Part shown: piece by piece, positions 45,673 through 54,237 of the stretch
Numbering within the stretch: the first letter of the stretch is position 1
How the letters are laid out: the number at the start of each line of letters is the position of its first letter
Assembly (NCBI GenBank): GCA_003574685.1
Contig: QOCQ01000007.1
Coordinates: forward strand, 124,001-188,000
DNA: 64,000 nt
Direction of reading: 5' to 3'
Source: Rhodospirillaceae bacterium SYSU D60007
GTDB taxonomy: Bacteria > Pseudomonadota > Alphaproteobacteria > Reyranellales > Reyranellaceae
Translations under genes and position numbers: made by a program
Notes under the pieces: generated by a model
Database searches by the model: none
What the model saw: the letters and a program-made list of their open reading frames with translations, nothing else
What the model was told of the DNA's origin: nothing

Positions 45673-46047
45673 ATGAACAATCTGCTTTTCAGCTTCGACG
45701 GCCGCATCAACCGCGCCCGGTTCTGGACGGGCGTCGCGGTACTGGTCGCTATCTACATCGTGCTTCTGGTCATCAACCTCGTCGCCGGGCTGATGTTCGG
45801 CGAGAGCATCGTCACCCTGCTGGTCGGTATCGTGTCGATCGCGGCCTACCTGGCGATGATCTGGCCGTCGATCGCGCTGGGCGTGAAGCGCTTCCACGAT
45901 CGCAACAAGTCGGGCTGGTGGGTGCTGATCTCGCTGGTGCCGATCATCGGCGGCATCTGGTACCTCGTCGAGTGCGGCTTCCTCGAGGGCACCAGGGGCC
46001 CGAACCAGTTCGGCCCCGATCCGCTGCCGTCTCCGGCCCTTGCCTAG
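45673..46047 (+). CDS. DUF805 membrane protein
   Basis: A 124-residue protein with about four hydrophobic helices and the DUF805 signature LFSFDGRINRARFWTGV at the N-terminus, then LGVKRFHDRNKSGWWVLISLVPIIGGIWYLVECGFLEGTRGPNQFGPDPL. GGGGAG lies upstream of the ATG at 45673. It overlaps the convergent MlrC gene by 4 bases at the stop codons. Role unknown. Confidence 0.88.
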   Translation: MNNLLFSFDGRINRARFWTGVAVLVAIYIVLLVINLVAGLMFGESIVTLLVGIVSIAAYLAMIWPSIALGVKRFHDRNKSGWWVLISLVPIIGGIWYLVECGFLEGTRGPNQFGPDPLPSPALA

Positions 46048-47510
46048 CCGGCGAAGGGATCGGCCACGAACGGCCACTGCGCGCGGGACGCCTTCTTGTA
46101 GGGCATCTTCAGGAAGTCGGGCGCCACGGCGCCCGGCACGGCAACGTAGAGAATCTCTGACGCGACCGGGGCATATTCGGCGTGGAAGTGCTGCATCGAC
46201 TTCACGACCACAACCTTCCTTGCCGCCGGATCGACACCGACGTTCGTGAACGCATCGACGCTTTTGCATTGCGCGCGCAGCGTGTTGCAGACCACGGCAA
46301 TGCCATTGACGTCGAAAGCGGCCATATCGCCGACCGCGACATGGCCGTTGCCGAAGCCTTTGGTCTGAGCATCGCGCTTAAGGCCGATCACGCGGGCCCG
46401 CACGTCCAGCGCCGGACCTGACATCGGCCCCAGCTTGCCGCCCAGCCGCAGATCGAGCTCGGCGCCCTCACCCACCTCGAAGCCCAGCCGCACGGCCATC
46501 GGATCCCAGAACATGGCGATGGCGGCATCCCGGATGCCGCGTTCCAGCATGGCCTGGAGAATGAACGTGGAATCGCTGGCCGCACCGCCGCCGGCGTTGT
46601 CGGACACGTCGGCCAACACCAGCGGCTTCGGCTGGTTGTGCGTCATGGCCCGTGCCAGCGCCTGGTCGAGGCTGGCATAGGCGGGCTGCGTCTGCTCGCG
46701 CAGGCGGAAGAACTCCATGCCCAGCTCGCGCGCCATCCGCTCGGCCTTGGGGCGATCGTTGTCCGTGACCACGAGGATCTTGCTGCCCATGTCGGGCACG
46801 TCGGCCCAGGGAAAGCCGTGGATCACCGACACCGACAGGACGCCGTCCTTGCCCTGCAGGGCCGTGCATTTGTCGACGAAACCACGCATGGGCTGGCGCG
46901 TGGTGTGGAACACGCCCACCGTACGGCAGTCGAACCAGCCCATCACCGGCTTGGTGCGCCCCTCCACCGCGTCGGCAATCAGCTCGAAGACGTCGACCGC
47001 GCGGTCGACGACGTCGACGTGCGGATACTCCTTGAACAGCACGATGGCGGTAGCGTTGTCGAGTTTCTGGCGGCCGACATTGGCATGAAGGTCGAGCTCG
47101 ACACCGACCGGCACATCCGGACCTACGGTCTTGCGCACATGCGCCAGCAGATCCCCTTCGGCATCGTCATAACCCTCGGCCACCATCGCGCCGTGGAGGC
47201 AGAGCAGCACGGCATCGACCGGCAATGCGGCTTTCAGGTCGGCGATGATCTCATCGCGGAAATCCTCGTAGACCTTGCGCACCGTCTTGCCAGCGGGCTG
47301 CGCGAAGGCGCAGAGGCTTTCCACCACTTGCCAGCCGCGCTTACCGGCCATGCGCCGCCACATGGCCAGCGGCCCGGCAAACATCGGCGGGTTGTCGCCG
47401 TAGCTGGCGCGGCGGTACAGGCAAGTGTCCTGAAAGAGCTGCAGGCCGGTGGGCAGGGAGGAAAAGGTATTGGTTTCGGTGCCGAGCGTGGCAGTGAAGA
47501 TCTTTGTCAT
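46044..47510 (-). CDS. M81 family metallopeptidase (MlrC-like) 2
   Basis: A 488-residue second M81 enzyme, more diverged from the one at 41.4 kb. Landmarks are ETNTFSSLPTGLQLF, DAVLLCLHGAMVAEGYDDAEGDLLAHVR, VGVELDLHANVGRQKLDNATAIVLFKEYPHVDVVDR, ADVSDNAGGGAASDSTF and VVVVKSMQHFHAEYAPVA. The metal region and Asp/His residues are kept, so it should be active. It is likely to act on a different small amide or peptide. Confidence 0.87.
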   Translation of the reverse strand: MTKIFTATLGTETNTFSSLPTGLQLFQDTCLYRRASYGDNPPMFAGPLAMWRRMAGKRGWQVVESLCAFAQPAGKTVRKVYEDFRDEIIADLKAALPVDAVLLCLHGAMVAEGYDDAEGDLLAHVRKTVGPDVPVGVELDLHANVGRQKLDNATAIVLFKEYPHVDVVDRAVDVFELIADAVEGRTKPVMGWFDCRTVGVFHTTRQPMRGFVDKCTALQGKDGVLSVSVIHGFPWADVPDMGSKILVVTDNDRPKAERMARELGMEFFRLREQTQPAYASLDQALARAMTHNQPKPLVLADVSDNAGGGAASDSTFILQAMLERGIRDAAIAMFWDPMAVRLGFEVGEGAELDLRLGGKLGPMSGPALDVRARVIGLKRDAQTKGFGNGHVAVGDMAAFDVNGIAVVCNTLRAQCKSVDAFTNVGVDPAARKVVVVKSMQHFHAEYAPVASEILYVAVPGAVAPDFLKMPYKKASRAQWPFVADPFAG

Positions 47511-47970: not shown

Positions 47971-49218
47971 CTAACTTCTTGATATAATTACCTTAATCTC
48001 ACCGAGACTCACCCGGCTGCCGTCTTGCAGCGGTGCGGGCTGAAACGGCGCCAGGCGCCTGCCGTCCACGGCGGTGCCGTTGGTCGAGTTCAGGTCCTCT
48101 ACGGTCAGCGTGCCGCCCGTCAGCCGGAACCGGGCATGGCGGCGGGAGATGCTGTCGTTCTCCACCGTGAGCTGGCAGTAGCGCGACATGCGGCCGAAGA
48201 TGATGCCCTCCTCCTGCGACAGCAGCGCCCCTTCCAGCCGCATGTCCACCGGCGCGCCAGCACGATCGGCCCCGATCATGCGCCACGCCCCCGCCGGCAG
48301 CGGTGCAAACAGCGGCTGGTCCATTCGCCCGGTCGGCACCGAGCTCTGGCTGGGATATGGGCCGGCCGAGGGCGGGGGCTCGAACAGCGGCGGCACGGGT
48401 GCCGAGGGTCCTGGCGGGAAAGGTGGTGGAGGCGCAGGCGCTGGCCCGAAGCCTGGTGCGGTCTGATAGCCCTGCTGGGGCGGCGGCGGTGCGAAGGACG
48501 GCCCCGGCGCCGGATATCCCGACGGGGGCGGCTGAAAGGGGATGGGCTGCGCGACAGGCGGACCCACGGGCGTGAAGCCCGGCCGCGACACGGGCGCGGA
48601 AACGGTCGGAACACGCGACGGAGGCGCTGCGGCGGCCGCCGGCTGCGCGGAAGGCAGCGGGCCGGCCGCCCCGGGCAGCACCGTGAAGGCGTCGGAGCCG
48701 GCCTCGGCTGGCAGCACGAGGTGCACCCGTACCGGGCGTGAGATGTTCTTCACCTGCCGGTCGCCCAAGTCCTGGAAGCGGAAGCCCACCTTGCCCTCGA
48801 CCGCCTCGCGCACCCGGGAGGACACGATCACCGTGCCCGGCTCGGCCAGCGCCTGGATGCGCGCCGCGAGATTGACCTCGTCGCCGAAGATATTGTCGCC
48901 ATCGACGATCACCTCGCCGAGGTTCAGCCCGATGCGCAGTGTGACGTGCCGGTCCGGCGGCCGGCCGGCGTTGCGCTCGGCCATCGCCACCTGCAGCTCC
49001 ATGGCGCAGCGCACGGCGGCGACGCTGCTGCCGAACTCGACCAGCATGGCGTCACCGGCGGTGTTCACCAGCCGCCCGGAGTTCCGGCCCAGCGCCGGCA
49101 GCCAGACATTGTCGAACAGCGTCTTCAGCTCGCGGAAGGTGCGCGTCTCCGCCCCCTCCATGAGCCGGCTGTAGCCGACCACGTCAGCATGCAGGATGGC
49201 GGCCAGCCGCCGGTCCAT
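47971..49218 (-). CDS. Class III adenylate/guanylate cyclase with C-terminal FHA domain
   Basis: A 415-residue three-part protein. Residues 1-175 are a class III cyclase domain: ILHADVVGYSRLM (metal D12), NTAGDAMLVEF (metal D56) and FGDEVNLAARIQAL (N116, R120). Residues about 175-305 form a Pro/Gly/Ala-rich linker. Residues about 320-415 are an FHA domain with FGRMSRYCQL, DSISRRHARF and DLNSTNGT, which bind phosphothreonine. It ends the kinase cassette, 7 bases after the transglutaminase-like gene. The FHA domain probably ties cyclase output to the neighbouring kinase. Whether it makes cAMP or cGMP is not decided. Confidence 0.9.
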   Translation of the reverse strand: MDRRLAAILHADVVGYSRLMEGAETRTFRELKTLFDNVWLPALGRNSGRLVNTAGDAMLVEFGSSVAAVRCAMELQVAMAERNAGRPPDRHVTLRIGLNLGEVIVDGDNIFGDEVNLAARIQALAEPGTVIVSSRVREAVEGKVGFRFQDLGDRQVKNISRPVRVHLVLPAEAGSDAFTVLPGAAGPLPSAQPAAAAAPPSRVPTVSAPVSRPGFTPVGPPVAQPIPFQPPPSGYPAPGPSFAPPPPQQGYQTAPGFGPAPAPPPPFPPGPSAPVPPLFEPPPSAGPYPSQSSVPTGRMDQPLFAPLPAGAWRMIGADRAGAPVDMRLEGALLSQEEGIIFGRMSRYCQLTVENDSISRRHARFRLTGGTLTVEDLNSTNGTAVDGRRLAPFQPAPLQDGSRVSLGEIKVIISRS

Positions 49219-49225
49219 GACGTCC

Positions 49226-50212
49226 CTACTCCTTCAGCTCGAAGAAGGTGATCTCCTCCGGCCTTCCCATATACCATGCCGTGGTCGGCGCGACCTGTCC
49301 CGGCGGCACGACCGCGGGTCCGGTCGGCTCGAGCAGCAGCCAGGTGCGGCCATCATACGTCACCGCCGCCTCCCCTTCGCGCGGCACAAGGTCGACGGCC
49401 AAGGCCACGTGCTGCGGCAGCACGACGAACAGCAGCCTTTGCCGGGGCAGCAGGCTGCGCAGGATCGCCGCCAGGGCCACTGTCTTGCTGTCGCAATCGC
49501 CGCGGTTGAGACGGAACATGGCCGGTGGCGGGGCGAACTCAATGCCACCTGTCGTGCGCGGATCGGTCAGGTCATCATAGGGGATCGCCTGGACGAAGCC
49601 CAGCGCCCGCGCAATGTGCTGCCGCGCACTTTCTCCCGCCAACTGTGCCGCCAGCGCCGCGGCGACGGGCCGCAGCGGCGCCACGTAACGCTGCGTGGCT
49701 GTCACGTAGTTCATGTGGATGGCGGGCCCGACCGCTCGGCGCGCATGCTTGTGCAGCCATTCCTGGCGCGCGTTCTCGATGATCCTGTCCATGCGGCCAT
49801 AGAAGGCCTCGCCCCGTGCCGGGTTGGCGGCCAGGACCGTGAAAGAGGTGCCCTCGGCCGTCCGCCGCACCTGCAGGCGCACGCCCGCCCGCTCGGCGTC
49901 ACGCCCCAGTGCCTGCTCGACATGGGCGTAGAGCTGCGGCATCGAGTAGTCGCGGAACAGATCCATCGCCGCCTCGATGTCGGCCGTCGGCAGCGAAAAC
50001 GCCAACTGCCGCGCCTCGCCCCCGGCATCCTTCCAGCCATAGGCAAAGCGCGTATCGCTCCCGCTCGCCTGCTGCCGGAAGGCCGTCTGCTGCGCCGAGG
50101 CCGACGCGACAACAGCGAGCGACGCAATGCAGACTGCGAGCAGCGCGCCAATGAGGCGCACGCTCTCGCACAGGCAGATCGATATGAGGTGGCGGCGGAC
50201 TCGCATAAACAT
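49226..50212 (-). CDS. Exported transglutaminase-like protein 1
   Basis: A 328-residue exported protein with a signal peptide (VRLIGALLAVCIASLAVVASASA) and a C-terminal transglutaminase/cysteine-protease-like core: FVQAIPYDDLTDPRTTGGIEFAPPPAMFRLNRGDCDSKTVALAAILR (Cys240), LPQHVALAVDL (His268) and WLLLEPTGPA (Glu295), then PPGQVAP. Start at 50212 is the best ATG; 50206 and a GTG at 50299 are possible and no ribosome site decides. It is clearly a paralogue of the gene at 52503-53462. It may be a peptidase or a catalytically quiet adaptor of the periplasm. Confidence 0.78.
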   Translation of the reverse strand: MFMRVRRHLISICLCESVRLIGALLAVCIASLAVVASASAQQTAFRQQASGSDTRFAYGWKDAGGEARQLAFSLPTADIEAAMDLFRDYSMPQLYAHVEQALGRDAERAGVRLQVRRTAEGTSFTVLAANPARGEAFYGRMDRIIENARQEWLHKHARRAVGPAIHMNYVTATQRYVAPLRPVAAALAAQLAGESARQHIARALGFVQAIPYDDLTDPRTTGGIEFAPPPAMFRLNRGDCDSKTVALAAILRSLLPRQRLLFVVLPQHVALAVDLVPREGEAAVTYDGRTWLLLEPTGPAVVPPGQVAPTTAWYMGRPEEITFFELKE

Positions 50213-50339
50213 CAGGGCCCGGCCCCTACCATCATTACACGTCAGGGTGAAGGCCAGCCACAGGATGGACGATAGCGAACTCTGCCGGTAACGGGGCACG
50301 CATCGCCGGCATCGAGAATGCGGACCAAACTGCCGGCTG

Positions 50340-52370
50340 CTATTGTTTCTTGAGATTGAGGCGGCAGTGCGGAGCGAAGATGTCGCGGCGTCCGCCGATC
50401 GTGCGGGCGCTGCCTTCGATCGCCAGTGTATCGCCCGCAGGCCGGCCCCGCAGCGAGGCCATCCACTCGCGTCCGATCTCGCCGATCCACGCCAGATCGG
50501 CCACTGCAGACGTCTCGCTCAGCCGCATCTTGACCTGCATGCCCTGCACGGTGGTGCTGCCCTGACCACCGGCGATGCGCAGGTTCACATTGCCCTTGGG
50601 ACCGCCCGGATGGCAGTCGACGGTACCGACCCACAGGCCTTCGACTCCGGGAGGTCGGCGCGCGGCCTCCTCCTGCTGACGCCGGGCCGCTTCCTCCTGC
50701 TGGCGGCGGCGCGCTTCTTCGGCGGCCTGGCGGCGGGCTGTCTCATCCTGCTGGCGGCGGGCCGCCTCTTCCTGCTGGCGGCGGGCCGCTTCCTCCTGGC
50801 GGCGCCGTGCTTCCTCACTGCCTGAGCGCCGGCCCTCCTCTTCCTGACGGCGCCGGGCTTCCAGCTCGGCCTGGCGGCGCGCTTCTTCTTCCTGCTGGCG
50901 ACGCCGCGCCTCCTCGGCGGCCTGACGGCGAGCCTCCTCCTGACGGCGGGCCTCTTCCTGCCGCCGGCTCTGGGCCTCGGCTTCAAGCTGCGCCTGGCGT
51001 CGCCCTTCCTCTTCGGCGGCGCGGCGGCGCGCTTCCTCCTCGGCCTGCAGGCGGGCCTGCTCGGCGCGCTGACGTTCCTCCTCGGCCCGGCGCTGCTCTT
51101 CCAGCTCGCGCTGGCGGGCGGCTTCCGCTTCGGCCTGGCGGCGCGCTTCCTCGGCTTGCCGCCGCTCCTCCTCCAGCCTTGCCTGGCGGAGCGCCTCCTC
51201 CTCGGCGCGCTTGCGTGCTTCCTCCGCCTTGCGCCGTTCCTCTTCCAGCCGCGCCTGGCGCAGATCCTCGATGTAGACGTAGCTGCCCACCGCGCCGCCG
51301 CCCAGCAGCAGCACCAGCGCGGCTGCCATCAGCCACGGACGTGCGCGGGCACGCTGCGGCGCGCCGGGTGCCGCGCCGCGGCGCGACACGCGCGTCGCCT
51401 TCGCCTCGTCGGGCGGCACGGCCGCGGGCTGCGGTCCGGGCGTGAATGTAGGCCGGCTGCCGGCGAAGTACTGGCGCCAGCCGGCGATGGTCTGGGGGCG
51501 GTCCTGCGCCTTCAGCGCCAGCCCGGCGTCGATGCCCGCCAGCAGCTTCGGCGAATAACTGCCGGCTGCTGCCTTTGCGGCAGGTACCAGCTTGTCCTCC
51601 AGCAGCCGCTCCAGCGCCGTCGGTGGCTGGCTGCCGGTCACGCACTGGTAGAGCGTCGCCGCCAGCGCGTAGATGTCGGTGTATGGTCCCTGCGTTGCCG
51701 AGGTGAATTGCTCGGCGGCGGCGTAGCCTGGCGTATAGACGGCCGTCAGCGCCGTCGTGCGGCCGGCAATGGCGGCGCGCGCGGCGCCGAAATCCAGCAG
51801 CGTGGGGTGGCCGTCGGCATCAAGCATGATGTTCGAGGGCTTGATATCCCGATGCAGCACGCTGGTGGCGTGCACGCGCTCCAGCCCGTCGAGCAGCGGA
51901 TGCAGCAGCGTTTCGACCGCGGCCTGGTTTAGCCGGCCTTCGCGGCGCAGGCGGGTTTCCAGTGTCTCGCCGCGCAACAGCTCCATTACCATATAGGCGG
52001 TGCCGTTGGCCTCGAGGAAATCGTAGACGCGTACAACCGCCGGCACGTTCTCGAAGCGCGCCAGTGTCTGCGCCTCGGCAAGGAAGCGGTCGCGCCCCCA
52101 GCGGAAATCGTCGGCCAGCCGCGTGGAGCGCGGCAGCACCTGCGTGCCGCCATGGCGCACCGCCAGCGCCGCCGGCAGATACTCCTTGATCGCCACTGTC
52201 CGGTCGAGCTGCTGGTCGTGCGCGCGGTAAGTGATGCCGAACGCACCCTGCCCCAGCGTTTCCAGCAACTGGTAGCGCGCCAGGCCATAGCCTGACGGCA
52301 GCGATACGAGGTCCTCGCCGTCAGCGATCTCGCCGGAGCGCGGCGGCATCCGGGTATTGGTCTCTTCCAA
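50340..52370 (-). CDS. Transmembrane serine/threonine protein kinase with long coiled-coil arm
   Basis: A 676-residue Hanks-type kinase. Residues 33-300 form the kinase: glycine loop G-QGAFG (40-45), Lys62 in VAIKEYLP, HRDIKPSN (173-180), DFG (193-195) and PGYAAAEQF. Residues 346-367 form one transmembrane helix. Residues 370-572 are an unbroken coiled coil of EEARRQ-type repeats. Residues 577-676 form a small beta-rich domain (GLWVGTVDCHPGG... with Cys586 and Cys669). The arm and C-terminal domain should lie in the periplasm. TTG start at 52370 has GGAGG 5 bases upstream; ATG at 52349 is an alternative. Likely partner of the FHA-cyclase. Confidence 0.9.
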   Translation of the reverse strand: MEETNTRMPPRSGEIADGEDLVSLPSGYGLARYQLLETLGQGAFGITYRAHDQQLDRTVAIKEYLPAALAVRHGGTQVLPRSTRLADDFRWGRDRFLAEAQTLARFENVPAVVRVYDFLEANGTAYMVMELLRGETLETRLRREGRLNQAAVETLLHPLLDGLERVHATSVLHRDIKPSNIMLDADGHPTLLDFGAARAAIAGRTTALTAVYTPGYAAAEQFTSATQGPYTDIYALAATLYQCVTGSQPPTALERLLEDKLVPAAKAAAGSYSPKLLAGIDAGLALKAQDRPQTIAGWRQYFAGSRPTFTPGPQPAAVPPDEAKATRVSRRGAAPGAPQRARARPWLMAAALVLLLGGGAVGSYVYIEDLRQARLEEERRKAEEARKRAEEEALRQARLEEERRQAEEARRQAEAEAARQRELEEQRRAEEERQRAEQARLQAEEEARRRAAEEEGRRQAQLEAEAQSRRQEEARRQEEARRQAAEEARRRQQEEEARRQAELEARRRQEEEGRRSGSEEARRRQEEAARRQQEEAARRQQDETARRQAAEEARRRQQEEAARRQQEEAARRPPGVEGLWVGTVDCHPGGPKGNVNLRIAGGQGSTTVQGMQVKMRLSETSAVADLAWIGEIGREWMASLRGRPAGDTLAIEGSARTIGGRRDIFAPHCRLNLKKQ

Positions 52371-52502
52371 GAGCTCCTCCGCCGGCAGCGCCGGTCGAGA
52401 GCGACTGGCCCACTATGTCAAAATGAGCGTAGACTCACAAGTACGATTTGCAGTCACCTTGATAAACAGCGTTACCGGACAAATCATCCCTGCCGGCGGG
52501 CG

Positions 52503-53462
52503 TCAGGCGGCGAGGGGCCAGACGGAAAAGGTCTGGGCGTCGAGGAAGCGGGCCGTTTCGGGAGCGACCTGGCCTACGGGCGCCATGGCGGGACCGGCTG
52601 GCTCCAGGGCGATGAAGACGCGGCCTTGCTCGCGTACCCAGGCGTCGCCTTCACGCCAAGGCACGTCGACCGCGAGGATTGCATGGCCCGGCATGGTGGC
52701 CATGGCGCTCAGCCGGCCCGGTGTGATGGCGCGCAGCACGCAGGCCAGCGCCACCGCCTTGCTGTCGCAGTCGCCGCGGTTCAAATCCAGCAGCGTGGGC
52801 GGCGGCGCAAAGTCATAGCCGCCGCTGCGTACCCGGTCCGTCAACTCGTCGTAAGGAATGGCCTGGAAGAACGACAGCGCCAGGCCGATGCGGGCGCGTT
52901 CGTCGGCACCCCCGGCGATGCCCAGCAGTGCCTGGGACAGCGGCCACATGGCGCGCATGTAGCGGCGGGCGGCACCGACATAGTCCACCCAGATGGTGCT
53001 GCGATCGATGCGGCGCAGATAGTGCTGCGCATATCGCGCCTGGGCCTGCTGCAGGGCGCGGTCGATCTGCGGGGCCGCTTCCTTGAGCAACGGTGGCGGC
53101 CCCAACAGGCGATAGCCGATGCCGAAGCTGCTGACGCCCGCCGCCTTGCGCTCGATCTCGATCTTCACCTCGCTCCATTTCGACGCGGCCTGGCGGAGGG
53201 CGGTCTCAATATAGTCGCGCATGGATTCCAGCGAGAACTCGCGGAACAGTTTCGTCGCCGCCTCGATCTCGCCCGTGTCCAGTGCAAAGCTGATGTCGCG
53301 CTCGCGCCGCTCGTGATCAAACCAGCGCACCCGGAACTGCGTGTGCCCCGGCCCCCGTCGGCGCTCAAAGGACAATTGCCGCGCCGCCACCGCGCGCGGC
53401 GCCAGTGCCAGCGCCAGGCTGGCGGTGGCGCCCATCAGCAAGCCGCGGCGGGGAATGTCCAT
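52503..53462 (-). CDS. Exported transglutaminase-like protein 2 (twin-arginine signal)
   Basis: A 319-residue paralogue of the gene at 49226-50212. It begins MDIPRRGLLMGATASLALALAPRAVAA, a Tat-like signal with the Arg pair. The core repeats the same block: FFQAIPYDELTDRVRSGGYDFAPPPTLLDLNRGDCDSKAVALACVLR (Cys232), MPGHAILAVDV (His260), IALEPAGPAMAPVGQVAP (Glu287). It is the first gene of the cassette, only 4 bases after the enoyl-CoA hydratase stop, so read-through from that gene is possible. Reaction unknown. Confidence 0.8.
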   Translation of the reverse strand: MDIPRRGLLMGATASLALALAPRAVAARQLSFERRRGPGHTQFRVRWFDHERRERDISFALDTGEIEAATKLFREFSLESMRDYIETALRQAASKWSEVKIEIERKAAGVSSFGIGYRLLGPPPLLKEAAPQIDRALQQAQARYAQHYLRRIDRSTIWVDYVGAARRYMRAMWPLSQALLGIAGGADERARIGLALSFFQAIPYDELTDRVRSGGYDFAPPPTLLDLNRGDCDSKAVALACVLRAITPGRLSAMATMPGHAILAVDVPWREGDAWVREQGRVFIALEPAGPAMAPVGQVAPETARFLDAQTFSVWPLAA

Positions 53463-53466
53463 CGCC

Positions 53467-54237
53467 TCAGCGCCCCCTGAAGACCGGCTTGCGCTTCTCG
53501 GTGACGGCGGCGATTCCTTCGACGAGGTCCTCGGAGAGGGCGCAGGTGCGAATGCGCTGGCGCATCGCCGCCTCGTCGAAGGCGCTGCGGCTGATGTCGT
53601 TGATCGAGGCTTTCATGCCAGTGACGGATAGCGGCGCCAGCCCACCCAGCGTCGTGGCAAGACCATCGATCCTTGCGGCCAAGGCCGTGCGCTCGACCAG
53701 CCAGTCGATGTAGCCGATGCGCAGCAGCTCGGCATCGTCGAACTCCTCGGCCAGCAGCAGAAAGCGCTTGGCCACGCCCGGCCCCAGGCGCTCGGTGAAG
53801 CGCCGCAGGCCGCCGGGATAGTAGTGCAGGCCCAGCCGTCCGGCCGGCAGGAACGCCCGCATGCCGCGCACGCCGACCCTGAAATCGCAGGCCAGCGCGA
53901 GGTCGGTGCCGCCGCCATAAACGCTGCCGTTCAGCGCGCCGATGGTCGGTATGCGGCACGCCTCGACACGATCGCACAGGGCCTCGAAGCTGTAGCGCCG
54001 CCCCTCCGCGGACGCTGCGCCCGGCTTCAGCGATCCGAGATCGAAGCCGGCGCAGAAGGTCTTCTCGCCGGCTCCGGTCAGGACCAGCACGCGCACGTCC
54101 GTTGCGGCTTCGATGGTGTCCAGATGCGCCACCAGCGCACGGATATCGGCCGGCGCCAGGCGGTTGTGGACGGCCGGATTGTTCAGCGTGATCGTGGCCC
54201 GGGGGCCGTCAATGGTCAGCAGAATATGCTCGCTCAT
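53467..54237 (-). CDS. Enoyl-CoA hydratase/isomerase family protein
   Basis: Crotonase-fold protein, 256 residues. LVLTGAGEKTFCAGFDLGSL and IGALNGSVYGGGTDLALACDFRVGVRG form the two oxyanion-hole segments, and LPAGRLGLHYYPGGLRRFTERLG the next. Catalytic acids of classical hydratases are not all obvious, so it may be a hydratase, isomerase or related crotonase. It is divergent from the acyl-CoA dehydrogenase gene 173 bases away. Confidence 0.85.
   Translation of the reverse strand: MSEHILLTIDGPRATITLNNPAVHNRLAPADIRALVAHLDTIEAATDVRVLVLTGAGEKTFCAGFDLGSLKPGAASAEGRRYSFEALCDRVEACRIPTIGALNGSVYGGGTDLALACDFRVGVRGMRAFLPAGRLGLHYYPGGLRRFTERLGPGVAKRFLLLAEEFDDAELLRIGYIDWLVERTALAARIDGLATTLGGLAPLSVTGMKASINDISRSAFDEAAMRQRIRTCALSEDLVEGIAAVTEKRKPVFRGR

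Follow-up and report, generated by a model that had tools for sequence, protein, structure and literature searches.

We present here a cassette of four minus-strand genes from the soil bacterium Rhodospirillaceae bacterium SYSU D60007 (genome of 5.34 Mb in 58 contigs), located in a stretch of 64,000 nucleotides of contig QOCQ01000007.1, referred to here as the window. The genes encode a class III nucleotidyl cyclase carrying an FHA domain (FHA-cyclase), a membrane Ser/Thr kinase, and two exported transglutaminase-like proteins, A and B. We give an even chance to the reading that the membrane kinase phosphorylates a threonine of the linker joining the cyclase domain to the FHA domain, that the FHA domain binds it and the cyclase is thereby switched, and that the exported protein is optional. 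Each domain is already known; the combination is what appears new, and a literature search, conducted largely outside subscription journals, returned no description that we recognised of an FHA-class III cyclase with an adjacent kinase.

The FHA-cyclase and its linker threonine

Seventy-six genomes of the order Reyranellales were searched, and the loci were retrieved and mapped. Two inferred group labels are used throughout: "Vineibacter" for the window's genus group (G073 and G075 included, and with one member titled Reyranella) and "Reyranella" for the large sister group, g4.

The identities of the Ser/Thr kinase and the FHA-cyclase given in the original prediction were borne out by Pfam (Table 1), and the catalytic and phosphothreonine-binding residues are intact. 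Cyclase residues D12, D56, N116, and R120 and FHA residues R343, S358, R359, R360, H361, S378, T379, and N380 are invariant in 17 homologues. We take D12/D56 to be the metal-binding Asp pair and N116/R120 the transition-state Asn/Arg pair of class III cyclases; the protein has the features of a class III nucleotidyl cyclase and the phosphothreonine-binding residues of an FHA domain (G-R, S-R-x-H, and N-S-T-N-G). The two positions that presumably set substrate choice, and that we take to be usually Lys and Asp, both hold Asn in the window and for the most part Gly and Asn in Reyranella, and the Lys/Asp pair of an ATP-specific class III adenylyl cyclase is absent. Host paralogues L174 and L178 have Lys replaced and Asp kept, and Asp is also kept in the rows of group g3 and G001. 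Among the matches listed for a class sample of 385 genomes (5 candidates scored per genome), none outside the order reached the FHA part. A second full-length FHA-cyclase match, in a 398-codon open frame away from the cassette, was seen in G053 (C1:1145175-1146044).

The otherwise variable linker carries one threonine whose position is constant. It follows the K-N-x-x-R sequence that closes the cyclase domain by 17 or 18 residues in 8 of the 10 non-Reyranella FHA-cyclases (the window, three Vineibacter relatives, G072, four of g3, and G001) and is T179 in the window; the exceptions are L063, with Ser at that place, and L066, with neither Thr nor Ser. The other pairs of neighbouring places from 8 to 44 have Thr in at most 3 of the 10 rows, the overlapping pair 18-19 excepted. 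The same place in Reyranella carries TTT[RK] in 53 of 60 rows, mostly as TTTRMVPQ. These Thr columns are 91% conserved; among the eight preceding columns, seven are conserved at 26-58% and one at 86%, and the triple Thr was found neither in the 165 residues before it nor past residue 260 of the Reyranella rows. The Reyranella motif, T-R-x-V/L/I/M, places a hydrophobic residue at +3 from a Thr.

By analogy with the diguanylate cyclase DgcB, compared below, the most likely course is that the linker threonine would be phosphorylated and bound by the FHA domain, and the cyclase thereby switched. The kinase of the cassette would phosphorylate the threonine, the FHA domain would take up the phosphothreonine of the same chain or of its dimer partner, and this binding would rearrange the cyclase dimer and so switch nucleotide cyclisation.

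The motif and the locus kinase co-occur. Best hits were indecisive for kinase orthology, since the locus kinase domains and other kinase domains are both about 60-66% identical to that of the window in many of the genomes listed; the C-terminal domain was therefore used to track the usual Reyranella locus kinase, and it is present in 51 of the 76 genomes, with one match in each. Across the 59 Reyranella rows that could be scored (the 60 of the motif count less G034, dropped at a contig end), 49 have kinase and motif, none has the kinase without the motif, 3 have the motif without the kinase, and 7 have neither (Fisher p 3.5e-7, uncorrected for ancestry). The seven rows without the strict motif (G025, G035, G040, G051, G065, G067, and G070) come from genomes that nowhere give a match to the usual locus-kinase C-terminal domain. 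Among the top 25 columns associated with the kinase, only the three Thr columns, G22, and L255 are unchanged in all 49 kinase-bearing genomes. Trees of 60 rows (G034 and G020 out, G072 in) require at least 4 kinase changes and at least 5 motif changes, and of three independent contrasts an average of 2.5 have motif and kinase changing together, and 0 have them changing in opposite directions. Kinases stand at the locus of G020, whose genome nowhere matches the usual locus-kinase domain and supplies no usable cyclase row. The co-variation of motif and kinase is suggestive, not significant.

A number of observations weigh against a cyclase switched through its linker by the neighbouring kinase. 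The fixed-place Thr was spotted post hoc, and the 10 rows include close relatives. G008, G009, and G010, which form one clade, keep the motif with no usual locus kinase detected; G065, without the strict motif, retains the near form ATTKVLPQ; and Thr is retained in the aligned column in 5 of the 10 genomes without the usual locus kinase. A column test ranks the Thr columns 7-9 (p 5e-5), behind Q166 (1.7e-7), M184, I188, E37, R183, and H202, so clade structure contributes to the association. A looser motif, credited by eye to G008, G009, G010, G065, and G070 (by aligned column 182, G051 replaces G070), lowers the contrasts to 1.8 of 3 with the kinase and 0 against. The kinase changes no more than 4 times on the tree, so part of the association can be put down to ancestry; a sign test on the contrasts cannot reach significance. 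Three g3 rows (L056, L065, and L121) have the linker Thr with no kinase seen at the locus; another kinase may therefore serve, and the locus kinase need not phosphorylate the linker. The residue at +3 of T179 is Pro, a poorer fit to a DgcB-like hydrophobic +3. At the level of the locus, no kinase was seen in 13 genomes (the flank in G001 is as short as 1.7 kb, that in G003 2.3 kb), the window kinase gene is set off from its neighbours by 132 and 127 bases, and the neighbouring metabolic genes are conserved as well, so synteny alone proves little. The aligned-column and looser-motif checks strengthened the linker Thr and weakened its tie to the locus kinase, and on balance our estimate for this reading stays as it was.

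The cassette and its kinase across Reyranellales

The FHA-cyclase is present at the locus in 71 of the 76 genomes, the window included, so the cassette is no chance grouping; for the other five, no such locus was retrieved (G002, G033, and G036) or the contig ends first (G021 and G032). The kinase is present at the locus in 57 of 76. The 71 loci, assigned to classes by hand from the locus maps, comprise 15 with kinase and exported gene, 42 with the kinase only, 10 with the exported gene only, 3 with neither, and 1 unjudged at a contig end (G071). G065, with an in-frame stop in the exported gene, and G020 were counted as having that gene, and G062, which has no upstream flank, as lacking it, since a genome search found none.

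The usual order in Reyranella is an enoyl-CoA hydratase-like gene (ECH), the exported gene (where present), the FHA-cyclase, kinase 1, a glycine-zipper lipoprotein-like gene, kinase 2 (where present), and a PEP-mutase-type lyase gene. The kinase stands after the cyclase there and before it in Vineibacter, and in G041 it is the exported gene that has shifted, past the lipoprotein-like gene to the far side of the kinase and still inside the cassette. With the kinase position reshuffled and this move contained, cassette membership appears to be more than inherited order. Every one of the 32 matches to the exported protein in the order, from 28 genomes, falls inside the cassette or next to ECH where a contig ends; the match in G056 is a remnant. 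Alignment A1 excludes G020 (masked bases), G065 (broken frame), G021 and G032 (contig ends), and G056 (remnant).

It is rather unlikely, in our judgement, that this is inherited synteny, with loosely related signalling genes sitting in a conserved metabolic block (acyl-CoA dehydrogenase, enoyl-CoA hydratase, and PEP-mutase-type lyase) and sharing no pathway, the kinase and cyclase serving other partners. The metabolic neighbours match the signalling genes closely in conservation, the host genome, counting the window, yields 12 match rows for kinases and 20 for class III cyclases that could supply such partners, and the exported gene and kinase change separately (on one tree, at least 11 changes of exported-gene presence versus 6 of kinase presence). 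Set against this are the reshuffled order with membership kept, the confinement of the exported gene to this locus within the order, the co-occurrence of linker motif and locus kinase, and the six other kinase loci examined in the host genome, which gave no cyclase, FHA, or exported-protein match.

The same counts bear on the idea, put forward originally, that the four genes form one system. The conserved neighbourhood, the restriction of the exported protein to the locus within the order, the conserved linker Thr, and the pairing of its strict Reyranella form with the locus kinase agree with it; the counts do not bear out a single obligate chain, with 42 loci having the kinase without the exported gene and 10 the exported gene with no kinase seen. 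Genes found apart in related genomes were to count against the system, and this applies to the exported proteins; for the kinase and FHA-cyclase it applies in 13 of the 70 judgeable genomes. C-terminal remnants of the exported gene lie between ECH and the cyclase in at least G056, G024, and G018 and, by eye, in G013 and G070. The exported gene is dispensable and has been repeatedly lost. An obligate four-gene system was rejected on the presence/absence counts and these remnants, and mutual dependence of exported gene and kinase on their separate changes, which show no consistent direction in 3 paired contrasts. A route that starts with the exported proteins sensing or altering the envelope, passes inward through the kinase, and ends in a second messenger made by the FHA-cyclase, as first proposed, does have all its parts in Vineibacter and an exported protein tied to the cassette locus within the order. 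We now consider it quite improbable: at least five of the 42 kinase/cyclase loci without an intact exported gene retain remnants of one, 10 loci have that gene and no kinase seen, and the 20 loci retrieved from outside the order (see below) do not pair the exported gene with a kinase, FHA domain, or cyclase.

The kinase has intact Hanks-type motifs (Gly loop, catalytic Lys, HRD, and DFG) and, by eye, a single hydrophobic stretch; one such stretch was computed in homologues L042 and L045. Past this stretch comes the putative coiled coil of the original prediction, some 200 residues with a high content of E, R, A, and Q, and then a C-terminal domain (about residues 575-676) overlooked in the original prediction and modelled as a beta barrel with a predicted local distance difference test score (pLDDT) of 90.4. 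One aligner gave no PDB match to the barrel at E 0.001 or better. The barrel aligns at 24-30% identity with the C-termini of seven kinases of the kinase 2 type, from Reyranella and G072, and PG_binding_1 precedes that domain in all three such kinases scanned (L047, L054, and L117). The Reyranella kinase adjoining the cyclase mostly has a different C-terminal domain, weakly SNase-like (4 of 12 members, best E 0.053); a search of the PDB with it gave no useful match, and a nuclease-like fold for it was set aside as weak. The extracellular PASTA repeats of PknB and Stk1 kinases gave no match in Pfam, and the match to NF033483 was confined to the kinase domain (147 bits versus a cut-off of 450). 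The C-terminal part differs by genus, so the cytosolic part is constant and the putative sensor part swapped.

A glycine-zipper, lipoprotein-like gene (L086:10108-10668; Gly-zipper_Omp E 1.3e-8) trails the weakly nuclease-like Reyranella kinase wherever the contig continues, and no match to it was seen at loci without that kinase.

In the linker-switch reading, the constant core would be a class III cyclase gated by its FHA domain, most relatives having a membrane Ser/Thr kinase next to it, and the kinase would sense the envelope through its periplasmic part, a beta barrel in Vineibacter and a nuclease-like or peptidoglycan-binding domain in Reyranella. The phosphorylation, the FHA binding, the activation, the sensing role, the direction of the signal, the product, and the identity of the kinase are inferred. 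A full relay from phosphothreonine to cyclic nucleotide, with swappable envelope sensors, a cyclase without the usual ATP-specificity residues, and a coupled LapG-like envelope enzyme whose gene directly precedes that of the cyclase, is possible, if doubtful.

The exported transglutaminase-like proteins

Exported proteins A and B are paralogues, 37% identical, as originally proposed. Both begin with signal-peptide-like sequences, twin-arginine-like in B (by eye), and the anticipated Cys, His, and Glu are invariant across 27 homologues (C232/H260/E287 in B and C240/H268/E295 in A). This trio would fit a Cys-His-acid site with Glu as the acid. Protein B is 74% identical to a Vineibacter terrae protein and 71% identical to a Reyranella sp. 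CPCC 100927 protein. Neither A nor B has a Pfam match at E 1 or at the curated cut-off, and the lone NCBIfam match for one of them is far below its cut-off (E 0.33). Among the 27 members, Transglut_core matches weakly in 7 (best E 0.032), Peptidase_C93 is absent from the families matched at E 1, and a profile search of the sequences of solved structures with the exported protein gave nothing useful.

An AlphaFold2 model from the 27 homologues (pLDDT 89.4; predicted template modelling score 0.86) was compared with solved structures. Foldseek found nothing at E 0.001 or better, its top match being 4u65_E (E 0.004). A second aligner placed LapG on top (4u65_E, Z 10.0 over 133 residues at 3.4 A; 4fgq, Z 9.7; 4fgo, Z 9.1), followed by transglutaminase-fold proteins at Z about 8, where by its own warning values under 8 are common by chance. 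The matches cover residues 156-319, residues 1-155 being barely tested in the comparison. In agreement with the original prediction, the exported proteins are thus modelled with a papain-like fold of the transglutaminase-like superfamily, with LapG as the nearest solved structure.

Homologues are present in 20 of the 385 genomes of the class sample, the host genome included. Twenty loci outside the order, taken from 16 of the 19 non-own genomes (G107, G133, and G247 left out) and several of them cut by contig ends, have no kinase, FHA, or cyclase open reading frame (ORF) beside the exported gene, and the exported protein as a general kinase partner was rejected on this count (0/20). Among those of these loci that were viewed by eye, the exported gene adjoins an M23-type-peptidase-like gene in L152 and L159, and L166-L168 have prolyl-tRNA-synthetase-like and polymerase-like neighbours in common. 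Two small genomes of the class have three copies each of the exported protein, G348 (L159-L161) and G342 (L167 and L168, two of them in tandem in L167).

As part of the linker-switch reading, the LapG-like exported protein would be an optional partner, most likely cutting or cross-linking a protein of the envelope in concert with the cyclase signal. Information might instead flow from inside to outside, with the exported proteins as periplasmic proteases set by an intracellular signal, as in LapD/LapG. The nearest solved fold, the position of the exported gene 7 bases before the cyclase in the window (in relatives possessing the gene, no more than about 150 bases away, G041 excepted), and the alphaproteobacterial protein HvyA, which in the accessible text of its report (PMC4241560) illustrates that such a protein can control the envelope, all point this way. 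We nevertheless judge this route unlikely: the scan, which covered 7 window proteins and no other part of the genome, found neither a LapD-like receptor nor an adhesin, Foldseek offers no match at E 0.001 while transglutaminases score Z about 8, and the exported gene is often lost while the other cassette genes stay.

Locus layout and comparison with known systems

All four genes of the original prediction are present as minus-strand ORFs at the coordinates in Table 1. Reading along that strand, the order is ECH, exported protein B, kinase, exported protein A, and FHA-cyclase, with successive gaps of 4, 132, 127, and 7 bases. The TTG start of the kinase gene is preceded by GGAGGAG, and an alternative GTG start at 50299 is possible for exported protein A. 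Co-transcription of the four genes, as first proposed, may apply; a promoter and terminator scan was uninformative (1 promoter-like and 3 terminator-like sites versus 0.6 and 1.9 in shuffled sequence).

Table 1. Positions of the cassette features in the window
Feature	Position	Strand	Basis
FHA-cyclase, 415 aa; cyclase domain residues 7-158, Pro-rich linker, FHA 340-406	47971..49218	-	Pfam (Guanylate_cyc E 2.7e-14; FHA E 6.1e-18)
Class III cyclase domain; N52 and N109 at the two substrate-choice positions	48745..49200	-	Pfam, alignment
Cyclase-FHA linker; T179 codon 48682-48684, 18 residues past the K-N-I-S-R end of the cyclase domain	48214..48723	-	Alignment
FHA domain, phosphothreonine-binding residues intact	48001..48201	-	Pfam (E 6.1e-18)
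Exported transglutaminase-like protein A, 328 aa; C240, H268, E295	49226..50212	-	ORF, homologue alignment
Membrane Ser/Thr kinase, 676 aa, TTG start	50340..52370	-	Pfam (Pkinase E 5.2e-37)
Kinase catalytic domain; K62, HRD 173-175, DFG 193-195	51624..52274	-	Pfam, motifs
Likely sole membrane segment of the kinase, residues 345-367	51270..51338	-	Hydrophobic stretch, by eye
Kinase C-terminal domain, predicted eight-stranded beta barrel, two conserved Cys	50343..50648	-	Model, alignment
Exported transglutaminase-like protein B, 319 aa; C232, H260, E287	52503..53462	-	ORF, alignment, model
Enoyl-CoA hydratase-like gene (ECH)	53467..54237	-	Pfam

ECH marks the locus in relatives and probably has no role in the signalling; a gene for an acyl-CoA dehydrogenase (ACD) runs divergently from it. 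In G074 (L043:423-4701), unlike other Vineibacter relatives, about 4.3 kb with a cyclase-like match (31% identity) lie between ACD and ECH. A gene for an M81 family metallopeptidase (window 46044-47510) lies 460 bases past the cassette and, among the fetched loci, recurs at that position in G073 and G075.

Alphaproteobacteria have many Ser/Thr kinases and many class III cyclases, and to our knowledge few of either have a known partner. PknB-type membrane Ser/Thr kinases have peptidoglycan-binding ectodomains; the kinase described here shares with them a cytosolic kinase domain, one membrane segment, and a periplasmic part, and differs in having no PASTA domain, with a beta barrel in the window and PG_binding_1 or a weakly nuclease-like domain in relatives. 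The multi-copy alphaproteobacterial class III cyclases have the same type of catalytic domain, to which the FHA fusion and the altered specificity residues are added here; adenylate cyclases number 37 in Bradyrhizobium and 28 in Sinorhizobium according to the accessible part of one survey (PMC1183210).

Several described systems share parts of the cassette, as far as the available excerpts of their reports go. FHA genes cluster with Ser/Thr kinase genes in M. tuberculosis (PMC1262709). The PpkA-Fha pathway of type VI secretion likewise has a Ser/Thr kinase and an FHA protein in one pathway; the excerpt names no cyclase (PMC3953482), and there is no secretion gene among the window proteins scanned here. 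LapG and other BTLCP proteins, including Caulobacter HvyA, are also exported, with a transglutaminase-like fold, and their Cys-His-acid site has a candidate counterpart here. HvyA and LapG use Asp as the acid and some BTLCP proteins Asn (PMC4241560, PMC4359373), whereas the proteins described here have Glu, no Peptidase_C93 match, an extra N-terminal region, and kinase and cyclase neighbours.

The closest parallel to the linker-switch reading is DgcB of Bdellovibrio, whose FHA domain gates its diguanylate cyclase by binding its own phosphothreonine, T14, with the +3 residue V17 in the pocket; the kinase is left unidentified in the accessible part of that work (PMC6733907). Both are second-messenger cyclases bearing an FHA domain, and the self-phosphothreonine of DgcB has a candidate counterpart here, with a hydrophobic +3 in the Reyranella motif. 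The constant position of the linker Thr lends indirect support to FHA gating of the DgcB kind. DgcB is a GGDEF protein that makes cyclic di-GMP and has its Thr in an N-terminal tail; here the cyclase is of class III, the Thr lies in the linker, a candidate kinase is next door, and the gating is presumed. For one possible pathway the cassette thus supplies a candidate kinase, a candidate site, and a candidate reader, and two purified proteins would suffice to test it; if true, DgcB would have a counterpart among class III cyclases, with its candidate kinase already in view.

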